This document shows, in pieces, positions 24,471 to 56,914 of a stretch of DNA of 64,000 bases. The DNA comes from Devosia sp. (lineage in GTDB: Bacteria; Pseudomonadota; Alphaproteobacteria; Rhizobiales; Devosiaceae): contig NZ_JAQGJM010000030.1 of assembly GCF_028290625.1 (NCBI RefSeq), positions 1 through 64,000 of the forward strand, read 5' to 3'. A program made the translations under genes and the position numbers. The first letter of the stretch is position 1, and each line of letters opens with the position of its first letter. The notes beneath the pieces are model-generated. The model was not told the origin of the DNA. It ran no database searches and worked only from the letters and a program-made list of their open reading frames with translations.

Positions 24471-25840
24471 GCGACGCGGCGGCGCCTGCACTCAATAAGG
24501 GGACGCGCGCGTTTTCGCGTTTCGAATGGATCATCGCCGGCCGCTATCTGCGCGCCCGGCGCAAGGAGGCGTTCATCTCGGTGATCGCCAGCCTGACCAT
24601 GGTGGGCCTCGCCATCGGCGTGGCCACGCTGATCGTCGTCATGTCGGTGATGAACGGCTTTCGCGCCGAGCTGCTGACCAAGATCCTGGGCCTGAACGGG
24701 CACTTCACCGCGTTTCCGATCGAGCGCGAATTCACCGACTACAAGGAAACCATCGCCAATCTGCAAAAGATTCCGGGCGTGGATTTCGCCGTCTATTATG
24801 TCGAAGGTCAGGCGCTGGCTTCGGGCAAGGGCAGTTCCACCGCCCCTGTCTCCGTGCGTGGCATGGATGAGGAAAACCTCAAGAAACTCAAATTGCTTTA
24901 CAACGCCGCCGATCAGGGCGGCTGGGACAACTGGGATACCAGCAAGGGCATCGCCATCGGCTATCGGCTGGCCCAGGCACTGGGTGTGTCGCTCGGCGAC
25001 AGCGTCACCATCATCAATCCCGACGGGGCAATGACGCCGTTCGGCACGACGCCGCAAATCCGCTCCTACCCAGTCAACGTGATCTTCGATCTCGGCATGG
25101 TCGAGTTCGACAGCTTCTACATGTATATGCCGCTGGCGCCGGCGCAGGACTATTTCAAGCTTTACAAGGACGAGCTCAAGCCCGGCCAGAAGCCGCTTGA
25201 TCCGATGGCAACCGACGAGGAAATCGACGCCGCCTACACTCGCGTCGGCCAGGCTTCGGCCGCCGAAATCTTCATCCACGATGCCGACGACATCACCAAT
25301 ATGCGCGCCCGGCTGCAGGCTGATCCGACGACGCGGCCACTGGTGCTGACCGACTGGCAGCAGCGCAACGAGACCTTCTTCTCGGCGCTGCAGGTGGAGC
25401 GGGTGGTGATGTTCACCATCCTCTCGATGATTATCCTGGTGGCGGCGTTCAACATCATTTCCAGCCTGATCATGCTGGTGAAGGACAAAAGCTCCGATAT
25501 CGCCGTGCTGCGCACCATGGGCGCCACGCGTGGCTCGATCATGCGCATCTTCTCCATCACCGGCACCACGATCGGCTTTGTGGGCACGTTGATCGGCGCG
25601 GGACTGGGCCTGCTTATCGCCTCCTACGCCGAGCCGCTGCGCGCATTCCTGTCCAATACGCTGGGTGTGGCGATCTTCCCGCCGGAAATATTCTTCCTGG
25701 CGGAACTGCCCTCCAAGACCGATCCGGTTGAGGTCACCATCGTGATCTGCCTGGCGCTGGGCCTGAGCTTCCTCGCGACGCTGTATCCGGCCTGGCGCGC
25801 CGCCCAATACGACCCCGTCGAGGCCCTGCGTTATGAGTAA
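24467..25840 (+). CDS. lolC: lipoprotein-releasing ABC transporter permease
   Basis: 457 residues from a TTG at 24467 overlapping the proS stop (TTGA). LolC/LolE family: an N-terminal membrane helix with [30 protein letters not shown], a periplasmic MacB-like domain of about 220 residues, then three C-terminal spans ([24 protein letters not shown] and two more). It extracts outer-membrane lipoproteins from the inner membrane and hands them to LolA. A single LolC/E-type gene next to lolD suggests a homodimeric LolF-like transporter, as usual in alphaproteobacteria. Overlaps lolD by eight bases. Confidence 0.94.
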
Positions 25841-26519
25841 ACCGCATCTGGTGCTGACCGACGTACATCGCCATTACGGGCAGGGGGACAAGATGGTCCG
25901 CGTGCTTGAGGCCGCCAATCTGACGGTCGAGAGCGGCGAAATGGTCGCGCTGGTGGCGCCCTCGGGTGCCGGCAAATCGACGCTGCTGCATCTGAGCGGG
26001 CTGCTGGAAAGCCCGCAGGGCGGCGAGATCGAGATCATCGGCATCAAGACCAGCAAGCTTGGCGATCGCGGCCGCACCCAGCTGCGCCGCTCGACAGTGG
26101 GCTACGTCTACCAGTTCCATCACCTGTTGCCCGAATTCACGGCGCTGGAGAACGTTTCCATTCCGCAATTGATCGCCGGCCAGTCGCAGGCAGCGGCCGA
26201 CAAGCGCTCGATGGAACTGCTCGACCTGCTCGGTGTCGCGCCGCGAGCCAGCCATCGCCCGGCCGAACTCTCGGGCGGCGAACAGCAGCGCATCGCCATC
26301 GCCCGCGCTGCCGCCAACCACCCCAAGGTGATTTTGGCCGACGAGCCGACCGGCAATCTCGATCCGGAAACCAGCGACCTGGTGTTCGAGGCACTCGGCA
26401 ATCTGATCAAGAACGAAGGCGCGGCGGCCCTGATCGCCACGCACAATCATGATCTCGCTCGGCGCGCCGACCGGATCGTGACGCTCCGCAGCGGGCTGGT
26501 CATCTCCCACACGCTGTAG
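25833..26519 (+). CDS. lolD: lipoprotein-releasing ABC transporter ATPase
   Basis: 228 residues. Walker A is APSGAGKST, the Q-loop is in [18 protein letters not shown] (the family HHLLPEF), the signature is LSGGEQQR, Walker B is [13 protein letters not shown], and the H-loop is ATHNHDLAR. It energises the lipoprotein release by the membrane subunit encoded just upstream. Length and motifs are standard. The facing minus-strand gene ends three bases after its stop. Confidence 0.95.
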
Positions 26520-26522
26520 ACG

Positions 26523-26861
26523 CTATTCGTCCTGCATGCTGGCCTTGCGAGCCTGTTCGGCGATCACCGCCAATCGTCGCCGGGCGGTCTTCAATTCAGC
26601 CGTCAGCTTCTGGTTTTCCGCCTTGAGCTGGCGCATCCGGGCCTCGGCAGCCTCGTGATGCTCTATGCCGTATTCGTGGATGCGCTTGACCACGACCTTG
26701 CTCGCGCTGGCTTGCGGATGCTCCAGCAATTCACGCCAGGTGACATCCAGCGTTCCGACCAGCTTGTGCGCGGCCAGTGCCGCCGAGGCCCGTTCGCCGG
26801 CATGCTCCGATCCCAGCATGCCCAGGATCCGGGTGAGCTTGGTCAATGTCGTGGCTTTCAC
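26523..26861 (-). CDS. unknown protein with C-terminal coiled coil
   Basis: 112 residues from a GTG at 26861, chosen because AGGAGG lies seven bases before it; an upstream ATG at 26963 lacks that. Residues 1-50 contain KLTRILGMLGSEHAGERASAALAAHKLV, resembling the start of small proteins in phages and rhizobia that I know only as hypothetical; then a helix WRELLEHP. Residues about 68-108 are a heptad-patterned coiled coil (ARMRQLKAENQKLTAELKTARRRL). It is cytoplasmic and probably oligomeric. It faces lolD and is divergent from the SOS peptide gene. Confidence 0.7.
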   Translation of the reverse strand: MKATTLTKLTRILGMLGSEHAGERASAALAAHKLVGTLDVTWRELLEHPQASASKVVVKRIHEYGIEHHEAAEARMRQLKAENQKLTAELKTARRRLAVIAEQARKASMQDE

Positions 26862-27113
26862 AGCGTCCCTCCTGATGCGTGAGCGGTGGAACCTGATCGC
26901 ACCACACCACAAAAACCAGCGAAATTTCAACAAGGCTGCTGCGTGCCTGGCTCTCTTGCTCACAACGGCGGCTTTGATACTGTAGGGCTATTCCAACACA
27001 GCTTTGGCCTGTCCGTGCTGGCGCGCCTTGTCGCCGCAACGGCACCCGCGAGCCATCTCCTAACGAATTCCTAACCAAACGTCGGCAATCCCCGCTGTGC
27101 ACGCAGTTCTCCA
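26862..27113. other. intergenic region between the coiled-coil gene and the SOS peptide
   Basis: No convincing gene. It should hold the promoter of the minus-strand gene that starts at 26861; I found no clear hexamers. Composition is somewhat AT-richer than the surroundings. Confidence 0.4.
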
Positions 27114-27142
27114 TAGACAGGAACAAATAGCGAACTTATAAG
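27114..27142 (+). promoter_or_regulatory. LexA-controlled promoter (SOS box within the spacer)
   Basis: TAGACA (27114-27119, five of six against TTGACA) and TATAAG (27137-27142, five of six against TATAAT) are separated by exactly 17 bases. The spacer contains GAACAAATAGCGAAC at 27121-27135, a perfect GAAC-N7-GAAC, which is the established LexA site of Rhizobiales and other alphaproteobacteria. Bound LexA would fully block RNA polymerase. The transcript would start near 27149, with a 21-base leader to the small gene at 27170. Confidence 0.88.
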
Positions 27143-27169
27143 AACGTATCGGAAACACAGGAGACGGAA

Positions 27170-27268
27170 ATGCTGACTTTCTTCAAGGATTTCGCTGCGT
27201 TCGTTACTCTCGGCGCCTTCACCGTGGGCTCGCTGACCTGGATGGATGTGCTGACCCGACTCGTGTGA
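27170..27268 (+). CDS. SOS-inducible 32-residue single-span membrane peptide (SidA-like architecture)
   Basis: A 33-codon gene with a good ribosome site (GGAGAC, six bases before ATG). The peptide starts MLTFFKDF, has a hydrophobic span AAFVTLGAFTVGSLTW (residues about 9-24) and ends MDVLTRLV. With one short helix and few charges it should insert in the inner membrane. It is the first gene after a LexA-boxed promoter. In Caulobacter the LexA-controlled SidA, 29 residues and one span, inhibits division through FtsW/FtsN; this peptide matches it in size, topology and control, but I cannot assert sequence homology. dnaE begins 77 bases downstream on the same strand. Confidence 0.75.
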   Translation: MLTFFKDFAAFVTLGAFTVGSLTWMDVLTRLV

Positions 27269-27345
27269 CCCTGTGGATTGCGCGTCGATTTGATTTCGCA
27301 TCGGCGCTGAGGCTGTCACAAGGAGAGCTTCGGTAAAGGACGATC

Positions 27346-30300
27346 ATGAGCGGTCCCGGCTTCATCCATCTGCATGTGCATTCGGCGTATTCCCTGCTCG
27401 AGGGAGCGCTGCAGCTCGAAACGATCTTGAAGCTCGCCAAGGACGACCACCAACCGGCCCTGGGCATTGCCGATACCGGCAATCTGTTCGGGGCACTTGA
27501 ATTCTCGGAAAAGGCCGCCAAAAAGGGCATCCAGCCGCTGATCGGGGTGGAGCTGGCCGTCGATTTCGCCGCCACCGAAGAGCGCACCAATGAGCGCGGC
27601 AACCATACCCATTCGGCCAAATCCAGCGTTGTGCTGCTGGCCAGCAGCGAAACCGGCTTCGGCAATCTCTCGCGTCTCGTGTCCAAGGCCTATCTGCTTG
27701 GCGACGGCGGCGCTCCGCGCGCGCAGGTCGACTGGCTGGACCGCGATGGGCTCGATGGCATCATCTGCCTGACCGGCGGACCGGAAGGCGCGATCGACGC
27801 ATGCCTCGCAGCGGGGCAGGATGTCCATGCCTATCAACGGCTGGAGCGGCTGGAAAACCTGTTCGGCGATCGGCTCTATATCGAATTACAGCGCCACGGG
27901 CGGGTGCAGGAGGCCTCGGTCGAGCCGCGCCTGGTCGATTATGCCTACCGGCGCGGCATACCGCTGGTGGCCACCAATGAGCCGTTCTTCAAATCCGCCA
28001 AGGAATTCGAGGCCCACGATGCGCTGCTGGCGATTGCGGGCGGCACCGTGCTGGCGCAGACCGCGCGGCGTAAGCTGAACGACCAGTATTACTTCAAGAC
28101 CCGCGCCGAAATGGTCGAGCTGTTCACCGACCTGCCGGAGGCGCTCGATTCGACCATCGAGATCGCCCAGCGCATTGCCTACCGGCCCAAGACCCGCGCG
28201 CCGATTCTGCCCAAATTCGCTGCTGCGCCGGACCTGACCGACGACGAGGCCGTCGCCGTGGAGGCCGCCGCCCTGCGCAAGATGGCGGAGGAGGGGCTCG
28301 ACATGCGCATCGCCACCGTGGGCACCTCGCCGGGCAAGACCGAACAGGAATACCGCGACCGGCTGGAATTCGAGCTGGGCATCATCCAGTCGATGAAATT
28401 CCCCGGCTATTTCCTGATCGTGGCTGACTTCATCCGCTGGGCCAAGGCGCATGGCATTCCAGTTGGTCCCGGTCGTGGTTCGGGCGCCGGCTCGCTGGTG
28501 GCCTATGCGACGACGATTACCGATCTCGACCCGCTAGCCTACAATCTGTTGTTCGAGCGCTTCCTCAATCCGGAACGCGTGTCGATGCCGGATTTCGACA
28601 TCGACTTCTGCCAGGATCGCCGCGAAGAGGTGATCCAGTACGTCCAGACCAAGTACGGCACCGAGCAGGTCGCCCAGATCATCACTTTCGGAACGCTGCA
28701 GGCCCGCGCTGTGCTGCGCGACGTCGGGCGCGTGCTGCAAATGCCCTATGGGCAGGTCGATCGGCTGTGCAAGCTGGTGCCGGCCAATCCAGCCGATCCC
28801 TATTCGATCGAGCGCACCATGGCGGAGGTGCCGCAGTTCAAGCAGATGGCCGAGGAGGACGAGACCGTCCGCGAACTGGTCGCCATCGCCAAGAACCTCG
28901 AGGGCCTGTTCCGCCACGCCTCGACCCATGCCGCCGGTATCATCATTGGCGATCGGCCGCTGCAGGATCTGGCGCCGCTCTATCGCGATCCGCGTTCGGA
29001 CATGCCGGTCTGCCAATACAATATGAAGTGGAGCGAGGCGGCGGGCCTGGTGAAGTTCGACTTCCTCGGCCTCAAGACGCTGACCACCATCGATTACGCC
29101 GTCAAGATGATCAATCAGGACGGCGGCGACTTCCGTATCGAAGATATCCCGATCGACGACAAGCCCACCTACGACCTCTACGCGCGCGGCGACAGCTTTG
29201 GCGTGTTCCAGGTCGAGGGCGCCGGCATGCGGCGCGCCCTGGTGGACATGAAGCCCGACCGCTTCGAGGACATCATCGCTATCGTGGCGCTCTATCGCCC
29301 CGGTCCGATGGACAATATTCCCTTGTTCTGTGACCGCAAGCACGGGCGCGAGGAGGTGGAATATCCACATCCCGACCTCTCCAAGGTGCTCGACGAGACC
29401 TATGGCGTCATCGTCTACCAGGAACAGGTGATGCAGATCGCCCAGCTCCTGTCGGGCTATTCGCTCGGCGAAGCCGATATGCTGCGCCGCGCCATGGGCA
29501 AGAAGATCAAGGCGGAGATGGACGCGCAACGCGAGCGTTTCCGGGAAGGCTGCATCCGCTATGGCCTGAAACTGGGGCAGGCCGACACGATTTTCGACCT
29601 GCTGGCCAAGTTCGCCAATTACGGCTTCAACAAGAGCCATGCCGCAACTTATGCGCTGGTCTCCTATCAGACGGCCTATCTCAAGGCCCATTACCCCAAC
29701 GAATTCCTGGCGGCGTCGATGACGCTGGATATGGGCAATACCGACAAGCTGGCCGAATTCCGCAGCGAGTCCAAGCGCAACAAAATTGAACTGGTGGCAC
29801 CCAGCGTGAACCGCTCGGAAGCCGTTTTTTCGGTCAAGAACAAGGCCATCCATTATGGCCTCTGCGCGGTGAAAGGTGTTGGCCGGCAGGTGGCCGAGCA
29901 TATCGTCGAGGCTCGCAGCAATACGCCGTTCAAGGACCTGGGCGATTTCGCCCGCAGGGTCGATCCGCGCATTCTCTCCAAGCGTACGCTGGAGACGCTG
30001 GCCAATGCTGGCGCTTTCGACGATATCGTGCCGCGCCGCGAAGTGGCCTTCGGCGCCATCGAGGCCGTCATGGGCATGGCCCAGTCGCTGACCACCGAAC
30101 GCACCGCCGGACAGTGGAACATGTTCGATTCGGGGGAACCTGAGCCCATCAAGCTGCCAGCCGGCGTTGCGGCCTGGAGCACGACCGAGCGCGCCGATCG
30201 CGAACTCTCGGCCATTGGCTTCCACCTCTCCGCCCATCCGCTCGATGCCTATGCCGATCTGTTCGATCGCATGCGAGTGCAGAAATGGACCGATTTCGAA

Positions 30301-30801
30301 CGGGCGGTGAAGGACGGTGCCTCAGCGGGGCGGCTGGCCGGCACCATTTCCGGCCGCCAGGACCGCCGCACCCGCAAGGGCACGCCGATGATGATCCTGA
30401 CGCTCAGCGACCAGAGCGGCAGTTTCGAGGTCATCGCCTTTTCCGAGCAGATCAACGAGTTCGGCGGCATTCTGTCGTCGGGCAAATCGGTGATCCTGCA
30501 GGTCGGTGCCGATGAACGCGCCGAGGGCATCAGCCTGCGCCTGCTCTCGGCTGAGTTGATCGAGGGGGTGGCCGAAAAGGTCGATCGCCGGCTGACGGTG
30601 TTCGCCTCCGACTCCAAGGCTCTCGGCTCGATCAGCGCCCAGCTCAAGCGGGGCGGGGAGGGGTCCGTGAACTTCGTCGTCATCCGCGACGGCGGCGCCC
30701 GCGAATACGAAATCGAACTCCCCGGCAGCTACCGCCTGACCGCCGAAGTCGCCGGCGGCATCAAGGCTTTGGAAGGTGTCATGGACGTACGGTTCCACTG
30801 A
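27346..30801 (+). CDS. dnaE: DNA polymerase III alpha subunit
   Basis: 1151 residues, the replicative polymerase. The N-terminal PHP domain opens HLHVHSAYSLLEGA. The polymerase active-site aspartates are in VSMPDFDIDFCQDRR (near residue 405), with PVGPGRGSGAGSLVAY before it. The fingers, the tandem HhH, and a C-terminal OB domain (about 995-1080, GRLAGTISGRQDRRTRKG) are complete. Length, motif content and position after lolCD identify it as DnaE1, not the SOS mutagenic DnaE2/ImuC. It lies downstream of the LexA-controlled peptide gene, so part of its transcription could rise during SOS. Confidence 0.97.
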   Translation: MSGPGFIHLHVHSAYSLLEGALQLETILKLAKDDHQPALGIADTGNLFGALEFSEKAAKKGIQPLIGVELAVDFAATEERTNERGNHTHSAKSSVVLLASSETGFGNLSRLVSKAYLLGDGGAPRAQVDWLDRDGLDGIICLTGGPEGAIDACLAAGQDVHAYQRLERLENLFGDRLYIELQRHGRVQEASVEPRLVDYAYRRGIPLVATNEPFFKSAKEFEAHDALLAIAGGTVLAQTARRKLNDQYYFKTRAEMVELFTDLPEALDSTIEIAQRIAYRPKTRAPILPKFAAAPDLTDDEAVAVEAAALRKMAEEGLDMRIATVGTSPGKTEQEYRDRLEFELGIIQSMKFPGYFLIVADFIRWAKAHGIPVGPGRGSGAGSLVAYATTITDLDPLAYNLLFERFLNPERVSMPDFDIDFCQDRREEVIQYVQTKYGTEQVAQIITFGTLQARAVLRDVGRVLQMPYGQVDRLCKLVPANPADPYSIERTMAEVPQFKQMAEEDETVRELVAIAKNLEGLFRHASTHAAGIIIGDRPLQDLAPLYRDPRSDMPVCQYNMKWSEAAGLVKFDFLGLKTLTTIDYAVKMINQDGGDFRIEDIPIDDKPTYDLYARGDSFGVFQVEGAGMRRALVDMKPDRFEDIIAIVALYRPGPMDNIPLFCDRKHGREEVEYPHPDLSKVLDETYGVIVYQEQVMQIAQLLSGYSLGEADMLRRAMGKKIKAEMDAQRERFREGCIRYGLKLGQADTIFDLLAKFANYGFNKSHAATYALVSYQTAYLKAHYPNEFLAASMTLDMGNTDKLAEFRSESKRNKIELVAPSVNRSEAVFSVKNKAIHYGLCAVKGVGRQVAEHIVEARSNTPFKDLGDFARRVDPRILSKRTLETLANAGAFDDIVPRREVAFGAIEAVMGMAQSLTTERTAGQWNMFDSGEPEPIKLPAGVAAWSTTERADRELSAIGFHLSAHPLDAYADLFDRMRVQKWTDFERAVKDGASAGRLAGTISGRQDRRTRKGTPMMILTLSDQSGSFEVIAFSEQINEFGGILSSGKSVILQVGADERAEGISLRLLSAELIEGVAEKVDRRLTVFASDSKALGSISAQLKRGGEGSVNFVVIRDGGAREYEIELPGSYRLTAEVAGGIKALEGVMDVRFH

Positions 30802-30848
30802 GACGGCTTGAGACTTTCGCGTCTGCCTGCATGTCCGTTCTCTCTCTA

Positions 30849-30935
30849 GCGCCCTTCCCGGACTTGATCCGGGGGCCTTCTGCCGTTTGCGCCGAATTGA
30901 AAGTGGCCCGCGGATCAAGTCCGCGGGAAGGGCGC
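30849..30935. repeat. dispersed inverted repeat, family B copy 2
   Basis: GCGCCCTTCCCGGACTTGAT at the left and ATCAAGTCCGCGGGAAGGGC at the right, with AAAGTGGCC inside. It is the same family as 22211-22289. It lies 47 bases after dnaE and may serve as its terminator. Confidence 0.75.
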
Positions 30936-31168
30936 TTGGGGATAGGGCTCTGGTCATATCCCGAATCTGAGGACTGGGTGGATCGCAGCCCCCAAAAGCA
31001 GCGCGGGAGAGGTGAGCCGTGGCCCGTCCTCTCCCGCTAGGGGGTTTTCACCCTTGTCCCCACGCTGAAACGCGGGTCGATTGCTGATAGAGGCAGCCTG
31101 ACCGGTTTGGTTCGGCTTGCCAAGATGTCGCCGACATTGAGCTTAACCAGGTCTGAATGCTGCCGGCC
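30936..31168. other. intergenic region between dnaE and rpsB
   Basis: No gene seen. It contains a further perfect 10-bp inverted repeat, GCGGGAGAGG (31003-31012) with CCTCTCCCGC (31028-31037), followed by a short G/T-rich tract; a terminator or structured 3' end is possible. Confidence 0.45.
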
Positions 31169-31197
31169 TTGCGCTTGGGCGCCATTTCCCCTATATG
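31169..31197 (+). promoter_or_regulatory. probable rpsB promoter
   Basis: TTGCGC (31169-31174) and TATATG (31192-31197) with a 17-base spacer. It would give a leader of about 130 bases before rpsB, long enough for the translational autoregulation known for rpsB-tsf operons, though I see no recognised leader motif. Confidence 0.6.
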
Positions 31198-31334
31198 CGC
31201 GTTTGCGTTCGACTGCGTGTCGTCGCGATTTCACACACGAGGCAGGCGATCTGTTCAATCAGATTGCCATCCGGTGGCAGGCAACTGTCGCAAGGCTTCG
31301 TGGAGGCATCAACCGGTAAACAGGAGCAGCCATC

Positions 31335-32126
31335 ATGGCACTGCCCGAATTTTCTATGCGTCAATTGCTTGAAGCTGGCGTTCACTTTGGTCACCAGAAG
31401 CACCGCTGGAACCCCAAGATGGAACGCTACATTTTTGGCGTTCGCAACGACATCCACATTCTCGACCTGAGCCAGACCGTGCCGGCCCTGAGCCGCGCAC
31501 TGCAGCTCATCTCCGACACCGTTGCTGATGGCGGCCGCGTGCTGTTCGTCGGCACCAAGCGCCAGGCCGCTCCGCTGGTCGCCGAAGCTGCCAAGTCGTC
31601 GGCGCAGTACTTCGTCAACTCGCGCTGGCTCGGCGGTACGCTGACCAACTGGCAGACCATTTCGAAGTCGATTTCGCGCCTGCGCGAACTCGAAGCGATG
31701 GGTCCAGATGAGCTCGAAGGCCGCACCAAGAAGGAGCGCCTGATGATGAGCCGCGAGCAGGAGCGTCTTGAGCGCGACCTGGGCGGCATCAAGGACATGG
31801 GCAACCTGCCGTCCTTGCTGTTCATCATCGACACCAACAAGGAAGCCAATGCGATCAAGGAGGCCCGTCGCCTGGGCATCCCGGTGATCGCCATCGTCGA
31901 CACCAATTGCGATCCCGACACCGTCGATTTCGCGATCCCCGGCAATGACGACGCCAGCCGTGCGCTGGAACTCTATGTGTCGCTGGTCTCGCGCGCTGCG
32001 ATCGATGGCATTGGCCGCTCGTCGAGCGCCATGGGCACCGATCTGGGCGCCTCCGAACGCGCTCCCGTCGAGGAAGCGCTGCCGGAAGCCGATGCCGCTG
32101 CCGAGCCCGCACCAACCGTCAACTAA
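31335..32126 (+). CDS. rpsB: 30S ribosomal protein S2
   Basis: 263 residues. Starts [27 protein letters not shown] (part quoted), with the conserved FGHQ and NPKM motifs, then [18 protein letters not shown], a coiled-coil hairpin of about 40 residues and [16 protein letters not shown]. The C-terminal 25 residues are an acidic alanine/proline tail. A CAGGAGCAGC ribosome site precedes it. First gene of the translation/envelope supercluster. Confidence 0.97.
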
Positions 32127-55801: not shown

Positions 55802-56137
55802 TCATTCCTTGGCAGCCGTCTCGATCGTTACCCAGCGGCCGGTGACGTCGCACTGCAGCAGCATGGTGTCGTTGTTGCGGATACCCACGATTGCCCCAGC
55901 AGACGACAATTTGCCCTCGAGCAGGCAGCCAGCGACTGGCGTATCGGCTTTCGCCTCGGCCCAGCCGGTTCCCGCATTGCAGACGGCAGTGCCATTGCCC
56001 GCATTGATGCCCACGCCTGCCGAAAACGTCACGTTACCGACCCAGCAGCGGGTCTCCTTGATGCTTGCTTCCTGAGCGAATGCCGGGATGCCGCCGACCG
56101 ACAAAAGGCCAAGCGCGACAAGCAGGGTGAACCGCAT
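55802..56137 (-). CDS. small secreted four-cysteine protein coupled to lexA
   Basis: 111 residues from ATG at 56137, which shares one base with the lexA stop (TGATG) and has TGAGGA before it. Signal peptide [16 protein letters not shown]...AFA, cleavage near residue 21. The mature 90 residues contain C31, C53, C71 and C96, probably two periplasmic disulfides, with glycine- and alanine-rich beta-type stretches (VTFSAGVGINAGNGTAVC). No family recognised. Because no promoter separates it from lexA, it should be expressed with lexA and thus rise in SOS. Confidence 0.72.
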   Translation of the reverse strand: MRFTLLVALGLLSVGGIPAFAQEASIKETRCWVGNVTFSAGVGINAGNGTAVCNAGTGWAEAKADTPVAGCLLEGKLSSAGAIVGIRNNDTMLLQCDVTGRWVTIETAAKE

Positions 56138-56847
56138 CAATATTTCCTCAGCAGGCCCACCAGACGGCCCTGCACCTTGACGCGATCGGGTCCGAAGATG
56201 CGGGTTTCATAGGCGGGGTTGGCGGCTTCCAGCGCGATGGTATTACCCTTGCGACGCAACCGCTTGAGGGTGGCTTCCTCGTCATCGACCAGAGCCACGA
56301 TGATCTCGCCGGTTCCCGCCGAGTCCTGCTTACGGATCAAGACGGTATCCCCATCGAAAATGCCGGCCTCGATCATCGAATCGCCGCGCACTTCGAGAGC
56401 GTAATGCTCGCCGGCACCCAGCATTTCCGGTGGCACCGAGATGGTGTGTGAATGGGTCTGGATCGCCTCGATCGGCGTACCGGCCGCGATGCGCCCCATG
56501 ACCGGCACCGAAATGGGCCGCGCATAATCCTCGACCGAACCGCGCATCGGCGGTGAGGCCACCTTGCCCAGATTGCCCTCGATCACACTCGGCTCGAAGC
56601 GCGACTTGCGTCCGCCCAGCGATGGGTTCATCGAATCGGGCAGCTTGACCACTTCCAGCGCGCGCGCCCGGTTCGGCAGGCGGCGGATAAAGCCGCGCTC
56701 CTCCAGCGCCGTGATCAACCGATGGATGCCCGACTTGGATGCGAGGTCGAGCGCATCCTTCATCTCGTCGAACGACGGCGGAATGCCGCTTTCCTTCATC
56801 CGCTCATGGATGAACATAAGCAGCTCGTGTTGTTTGCGCGTTAGCAT
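56137..56847 (-). CDS. lexA: LexA repressor
   Basis: 236 residues, standard for alphaproteobacteria. The winged helix-turn-helix is at residues 1-65 ([33 protein letters not shown] region). The autocleavage site is A122-G123 in GRIAAGTP; the catalytic dyad is S157 in RGDSMIEAG and K195 in EATLKRL. It represses the SOS regulon until RecA-ssDNA triggers self-cleavage. Two GAAC-N7-GAAC boxes lie in its promoter. The downstream secreted-protein gene is translationally coupled. Confidence 0.97.
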
Positions 56848-56869: not shown

Positions 56870-56914
56870 GAACAAAGACTGAACGATGATACGTGTTCCA
56901 GTTATGTTCCGCAA
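56870..56914 (-). promoter_or_regulatory. lexA promoter with two LexA boxes
   Basis: On the minus strand TTGCGG (56914-56909) and TATCAT (56891-56886) stand 17 bases apart. Box 1, GAAC-N7-GAAC on the minus strand (GTTCCAGTTATGTTC on the plus strand, 56895-56909), fills the spacer. Box 2, at 56870-56884 (GAACAAAGACTGAAC on the plus strand), lies just downstream around the transcription start. Both are perfect matches to the alphaproteobacterial motif, and the pair gives autoregulation. The moeA stop is upstream at 56998. Confidence 0.9.

Follow-up and report, generated by a model that had tools for sequence, protein, structure and literature searches.

The small gene between lolD and dnaE

The window, i.e. 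the whole stretch of 64,000 nucleotides analysed here, holds a 33-codon frame placed between lolD and dnaE, with a promoter and a LexA-type operator ahead of it. The features at the locus are given below; the -35 element, the spacer, the first operator and the -10 element were read directly in the sequence.

25833..26519, + strand: lolD, ABC ATPase (best family LolD, 242 bits, below the cut-off of 308)
27114..27119, + strand: -35 element TAGACA
27120-27136, + strand: spacer of 17 bases between the -35 and -10 elements
27121..27135, + strand: putative LexA operator GAAC-N7-GAAC, GAACAAATAGCGAAC, inside the spacer
27137..27142, + strand: -10 element TATAAG
27142..27156, + strand: degenerate second operator GAAC-N7-AAAC, 21 bases after the first
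27160..27165, + strand: Shine-Dalgarno-like GGAGAC, its GGAG six bases ahead of the ATG
27170..27268, + strand: sidA-like gene for a predicted 32-residue single-span membrane peptide, MLTFFKDFAAFVTLGAFTVGSLTWMDVLTRLV (ATG at 27170, stop TGA at 27266-27268)
27346..30801, + strand: dnaE, DNA polymerase III alpha subunit (NF004226, 1422 bits, cut-off 1002)

Searching with the peptide gave matches in all 37 genomes of the genus (own genome included) at E <= 1.2e-8, and in a wider draw 74 of 75 genomes matched, the sole miss (G450) being 85% complete. Start, frame and stop are kept in 36 of the 37 genus loci read, with a length of 32-33 residues. The initial annotation had proposed a small gene with one hydrophobic span and made its case depend on conservation of the reading frame. 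In the genus loci the substitutions are not random by codon position (variation of 0.119, 0.031 and 0.265 at positions 1, 2 and 3), and pN/pS is 0.228 in frame versus 1.10 and 4.71 in the shifted frames. Judged from these sequence patterns, 27170-27268 is a protein-coding gene under purifying selection. Short frames are common here, as 75 of at least 25 residues overlap 24500-31500, and one could suppose that there is no gene, only a hydrophobic frame arisen by chance downstream of some conserved promoter or RNA. Chance is excluded, however, because the frame is conserved across the genus genomes, and with the codon-position pattern, the pN/pS values and the retained start and stop we give this reading practically no weight. 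It should be noted that many relatives have a second in-frame ATG two codons upstream, and hence the exact start in these is a choice.

The predicted structure is one helix over residues 2-31 (mean pLDDT 92.7), and from this hydrophobic helix the peptide would be expected to span the membrane; the prediction does not discriminate among the readings discussed below. Residues K6, D7, T13, W24 and D26 are invariant in 17 aligned genus peptides. A Pfam search with four peptides gave no relevant match, the sole one being weak, to MrpF_PhaF (0.028), and below the cut-off.

Some further observations were made around the gene. In one genus locus (L036, genome G024) the start and the box are absent and the frame from about residue 7 onward remains; this is the sole such case among the 37. 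An uncharacterised frame of 146 aa lies between lolD and the peptide gene (26523-26963, - strand), and four genomes of genus g145 likewise have relatives with 37-50% identity upstream of this locus (L075, L076, L078 and L083). The sequence TGTGGATTG, which resembles a DnaA box by consensus, is found at 27272-27280 and lies within 40 bases past the peptide stop in 29 of 36 genus loci; it may belong to the dnaE promoter. Relaxing the TGTGGATTG pattern slightly gives sites no more than 300 bases from dnaE in 8 of 70 loci of the order, versus 0 in the reversed control.

Promoter and LexA operator

On re-reading, the promoter had the layout given in the initial annotation, with TAGACA, 17 bases and TATAAG, the GAAC-N7-GAAC box in the spacer and GGAGAC downstream. 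Among 36 genus loci the -35 element varies (TGGACA in 10, TGGACG in 9, TAGACA in 7 and TCGACA in 4), and the -10 element is TATAAG in 26. The operator is exact in 29 of these loci and present with at most one mismatch in all 36; GGAG or AGGA likewise stands ahead of the start in 36/36. The spacing from box to start is nearly constant, -47 to -51 in 33 of the 36. A generic sigma-70 scan, which requires T as the last -10 base, did not report the promoter. No terminator-like site was found in 26900-27400, and an Rfam scan of 26500-27500 gave no matches.

The second operator is exact in only one of the 36 genus loci, whereas at this 21-base spacing four loci of the family (L048, L050, L051 and L085) have a second box that is exact. 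We read the copy at 27142-27156 as a possible weak or relic tandem site.

The box by itself is weak evidence, because the window count of four GAAC-N7-GAAC copies (1.57 expected) is reached or exceeded in 10 of 100 shuffles. Two of the other three copies in the window lie directly ahead of lexA, as found by a motif scan:

56137..56847, - strand: lexA (TIGR00498, 179 bits, cut-off 111)
56870-56884, + strand, and 56895-56909, - strand: two GAAC-N7-GAAC operators ahead of lexA

Genome-wide, the tighter pattern GAACANANNNNGAAC has 19 matches versus 2 for the reversed pattern. Neighbours were assigned for 8 of the 19, the window gene included; the other seven sites adjoin lexA (2), uvrA, ssb, imuA, dnaE2 and radA, the imuA call being of 47.8 bits and thus below the model cut-off of 150. 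The box at radA (L379, own genome C7:222005-222019) is the very 15-mer GAACAAATAGCGAAC of the window gene. As two copies precede lexA and others precede SOS genes, we take GAAC-N7-GAAC to be the LexA operator of this genome, as the initial annotation had it. It is also the published Caulobacter LexA box GTTC-N7-GTTC, in the excerpted text of PMC9578287 and PMC12700426, read on the opposite strand. Two more of the genome-wide boxes stand beside genes not known for SOS: L380 and L387 are near an RNA 2',3'-cyclic phosphodiesterase-like gene (below cut-off) and near aspartate carbamoyltransferase, which are possibly unexpected SOS genes.

SidA at the same locus and its probable relatives in the class

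In three genomes of the class with box and peptide, MipZ was compared with PDB, where we take the solved MipZ to be the Caulobacter protein; G574 gave 366 bits and the others 235 and 251. The G574 peptide has 29 residues. In its family dnaE was matched in 55 of 60 genomes. Fifty loci were read, and in 47 of them dnaE is preceded by a short hydrophobic frame, typically of 29 residues, together with a box (at most one mismatch). NCBIfam NF033228 identifies this 29-residue peptide of the Caulobacteraceae as SidA (70.8 bits, cut-off 35), and 19 of 22 aligned members match the model at 0.001. When NF033228 was run on 385 genomes of the class it gave a single match (G652), ending 63 bases before the dnaE match, and none in the order genomes of that draw; among 14 control genomes only Caulobacter vibrioides matched. 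A further set of 80 named loci was retained out of 148 confirmed ones, with Caulobacter vibrioides T5M6 and OR37, C. segnis FS and Phenylobacterium among the sources. In 79 of the 80 dnaE lies within 400 bases, and 79 carry a box with no more than one mismatch, which is exact in 51. Because the peptide served to find these loci, they tell where it stands but not how frequently it is missing.

The gene sidA is presumably CC1927. That the dnaE-adjacent peptide is sidA of C. crescentus NA1000 rests on the NF033228 match in Caulobacter vibrioides, the length of 29 aa, and the locus numbers CCNA_02004 for sidA (excerpt of PMC10769358) and CC1926 for dnaE (a table of PMC1839093). The sidA gene occupies the very place where the window gene stands, directly before dnaE and behind the same operator. 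The accessible part of PMC4211646 describes SidA as an inner-membrane protein of 29 aa with which FtsW and FtsN interact.

One could also read the LexA box as serving dnaE, giving an SOS-inducible replicative polymerase with the short frame as a leader peptide or passenger. The dnaE start lies 77 bases past the peptide stop (about 27-324 bases for the order peptides), and read-through is possible since no terminator-like site was found in 26900-27400. Against this stand the peptide's own ribosome site, the strong purifying selection on its amino acids and the nearly fixed distance from start to box. Moreover, the peptide found at dnaE in the Caulobacteraceae is SidA, and the filamentation of a lexA mutant is relieved by sidA deletion, as stated in the excerpt of PMC12700426. 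We find this reading quite unlikely.

The window peptide itself gave no match to NF033228 at E <= 1 (cut-off 35 bits), and it is hence placed as a divergent homologue outside that model. Among 41 order peptides the model matched one, at 0.067 and below the cut-off. There was no relevant NCBIfam match over cut-off for the window peptide and nearly all of the 41; NF041484 YmiC, a small membrane protein family, matched 4 of them weakly (best 9e-4), and the window peptide at 0.095 (12.3 bits, cut-off 42).

The window stretch MLTFFKDFAAFVTLGAF aligns with SidA gap-free. It should be noted that the peptide sets and starts were picked by hand (49 order, 9 class and 34 Caulobacteraceae peptides; ATG starts except GTG in L294 and L131, the latter being outside the order set and the hhalign tests). 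Against an HMM of Caulobacteraceae SidA only, the 49 order peptides average 8.0 bits, versus a mean of 0.67 and a maximum of 1.75 for 200 shuffle sets that keep the hydrophobic pattern. The window peptide is among those beating 95% of their own shuffles, which are 31 of 49 with pattern-keeping and 34 of 49 with full shuffles; 18 and 15, respectively, fail this mark. Its own score of 8.8 bits, versus a maximum of 8.0 for 298 hydrophobic control 32-mers from the window's six frames, gives modest single-sequence support for homology. For the nine class peptides, 5/9 score above 95% of full and 4/9 above 95% of pattern-keeping shuffles.

With hhalign, all 49 order and 34 Caulobacteraceae peptides gave 95.4%, and the value was 95.6% without the window's own family and 89.5% for this family alone. 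Reduced sets gave 94.5%; for these, 8 order peptides with an odd length or a weak motif had been removed from the 49, and 12 peptides from the 34 of the Caulobacteraceae. The scores were 31.4 for the order and 26.0 for the own family, versus at most 13.9 and 15.5 in 100 permutations of the SidA columns. The initial annotation had compared the peptide with SidA, and this comparison turns out closer than claimed, with the same place, the same operator and profile scores above permuted controls. The relation to sidA is probably one of orthology rather than analogy.

The likeness of the own-family peptides to SidA is confined to 18 N-terminal columns, and the C-terminal halves differ, with FVWMxC in SidA versus SLTWMDVL here. 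This would suit a SidA ancestor and locus with another target in the window's order, e.g. polar growth, which extracts of the literature report for Rhizobiales (the window's order if the genus name Devosia holds), or another envelope machine. Nothing positive points to such a target, however, and the window peptide has its N-terminal half, its place and its control in common with SidA; we hold a change of target to be unlikely. Another alternative is a membrane peptide under LexA control that, in the manner of TisB/DinQ, causes membrane disturbance and dormancy instead of a divisome block. It too would be hydrophobic, have a single span and follow a LexA operator, and the SOS-linked membrane peptides DinQ and TisB are described in extracts of the literature. 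Place and profile similarity nevertheless favour SidA, and the invariant charged or polar residues suit a protein partner; as to an antisense partner, the one Rfam scan gave no hits. We regard this reading as very improbable.

Within the family, searching with a profile built on 17 genus peptides gave matches at E <= 1 in 126 of 136 genomes, of which the weakest are no better than chance. Among 25 family loci read outside the genus, 21 have the exact box and 24 have dnaE next. Seven of eight further order loci have the peptide between lolD and dnaE, and six have the exact box. The single-protein search outside the own family reached 3 of 24 order genomes at E 0.21-0.69, not separable from chance.

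We also surveyed the sequence ahead of dnaE, with dnaE starts extrapolated from tblastn. In the order 70 loci were read of 128 genomes with a match (130 searched, own genome left out), and in the rest of the class 68 of 103 matches; the loci were selected on score, genome size and completeness and are not random. An exact coding-strand box within 600 bases before dnaE is present in 40 of the 70 order loci, with 5 in the opposite orientation and 1 and 1 in the reversed controls. Outside the own family the count is 38 of 66, versus a Markov null with mean 0.68 and maximum 3. Downstream of most order boxes there is a frame of some 30 residues with one span. The exact box near dnaE is absent in 30 of the 70, four of which keep a clear peptide with a one-mismatch box. 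An order HMM scored at least 12 in 41/70 loci forward and 0/70 in reverse, a result that is partly circular as the HMM was built from peptides of the same loci; the SidA-HMM tests and the hhalign comparison of the full sets are free of this circularity. In other orders the exact box is found in 10 of 68 loci forward, hardly more than the 7 of 68 in reverse, with 0 and 2 in the reversed controls (null mean 0.74, maximum 4); a candidate one-span frame comes after each of the 10 forward boxes, and one of these loci (L181) is in a Caulobacter relative.

We lean towards regarding the SidA checkpoint as no peculiarity of the Caulobacteraceae but as an SOS module of old standing in the alphaproteobacteria, located at dnaE, found in much of the window's order and scattered over other orders. 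It would have been missed because the peptides have about 30 residues and are too diverged for the only model, and its contact on the divisome may differ in the window's order.

Proposed role and comparison with known systems

The gene, its operator, its locus, the selection on it and its profile similarity to SidA were all obtained by computation. We consider it likely that the gene is a divergent sidA orthologue encoding a LexA-controlled division inhibitor that acts on FtsW/FtsN. The operator suggests repression and induction by LexA; a division block after DNA damage would be the most likely role of the window peptide, because place, operator and N-terminal profile are common with SidA, and FtsW/FtsN would be its target by analogy with SidA. 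In the undamaged cell LexA on the operator between the -35 and -10 elements would exclude RNA polymerase. Upon damage, RecA-triggered cleavage of LexA would free the promoter, and the 32-residue inner-membrane peptide would then be produced. The peptide would keep the septal-wall complex FtsW/FtsI/FtsN inactive and delay division until repair; SidA and DidA are thought to keep the FtsW/I/N complex inactive, in the excerpted text of PMC4211646.

The place between lolD and dnaE, the operator and the N-terminal motif offer a direct route by which the inhibitor could be located and tested in numerous species of this order. Comparison of very divergent peptides can reveal the residues touching FtsW/FtsN, and the DNA-damage brake on division may be far more widespread than the current family model shows. 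In the open-licence literature we found neither a named alphaproteobacterial SOS division inhibitor besides Caulobacter SidA nor work on the SidA-like branch of the window's order, most subscription papers being outside this literature; an earlier in-silico study of LexA may have recorded the box, as an operator of dnaE.

Among known systems, YneA, SosA and ChiZ of Gram-positives and mycobacteria can be likened by description as small membrane SOS division inhibitors; the phyla differ, and YneA and ChiZ contain a LysM domain. AlphaFold 3 models, not of high confidence, have these three bound to FtsW, as SidA, according to the excerpt of PMC13396833. DidA of Caulobacter, also set beside the window peptide by description, is a small one-span division inhibitor induced by DNA damage with FtsN as partner (excerpt of PMC4211646). 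It differs in having 71 residues and in being SOS-independent (gene CCNA03212). The peptides TisB and DinQ of E. coli are described in literature extracts as short, hydrophobic and SOS-linked, and are likened by description only. Unlike the proposed division inhibitor, they are membrane-acting and antisense-controlled, as is the case for TisB.

The closest system is SidA of Caulobacter (NF033228; CCNA_02004). Both are one-span peptides of 29-32 residues directly before dnaE, with one or more GAAC-N7-GAAC-type operators about 30-60 bases ahead of the start, and the N-terminal pattern [KR][DE]xxA[FL]x[ST][LV]xxF is common to both. On the other hand, the letters are only distantly similar and the window peptide is unmatched by the SidA model; it is three residues longer, and its C-terminal half has W-x-D and lacks the FVWM-x-C of SidA. 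An SOS division inhibitor of the SidA kind is already known, and the apparent branch in the window's order, in which nearly all peptides tested have no relevant family-model match over cut-off, would be new.
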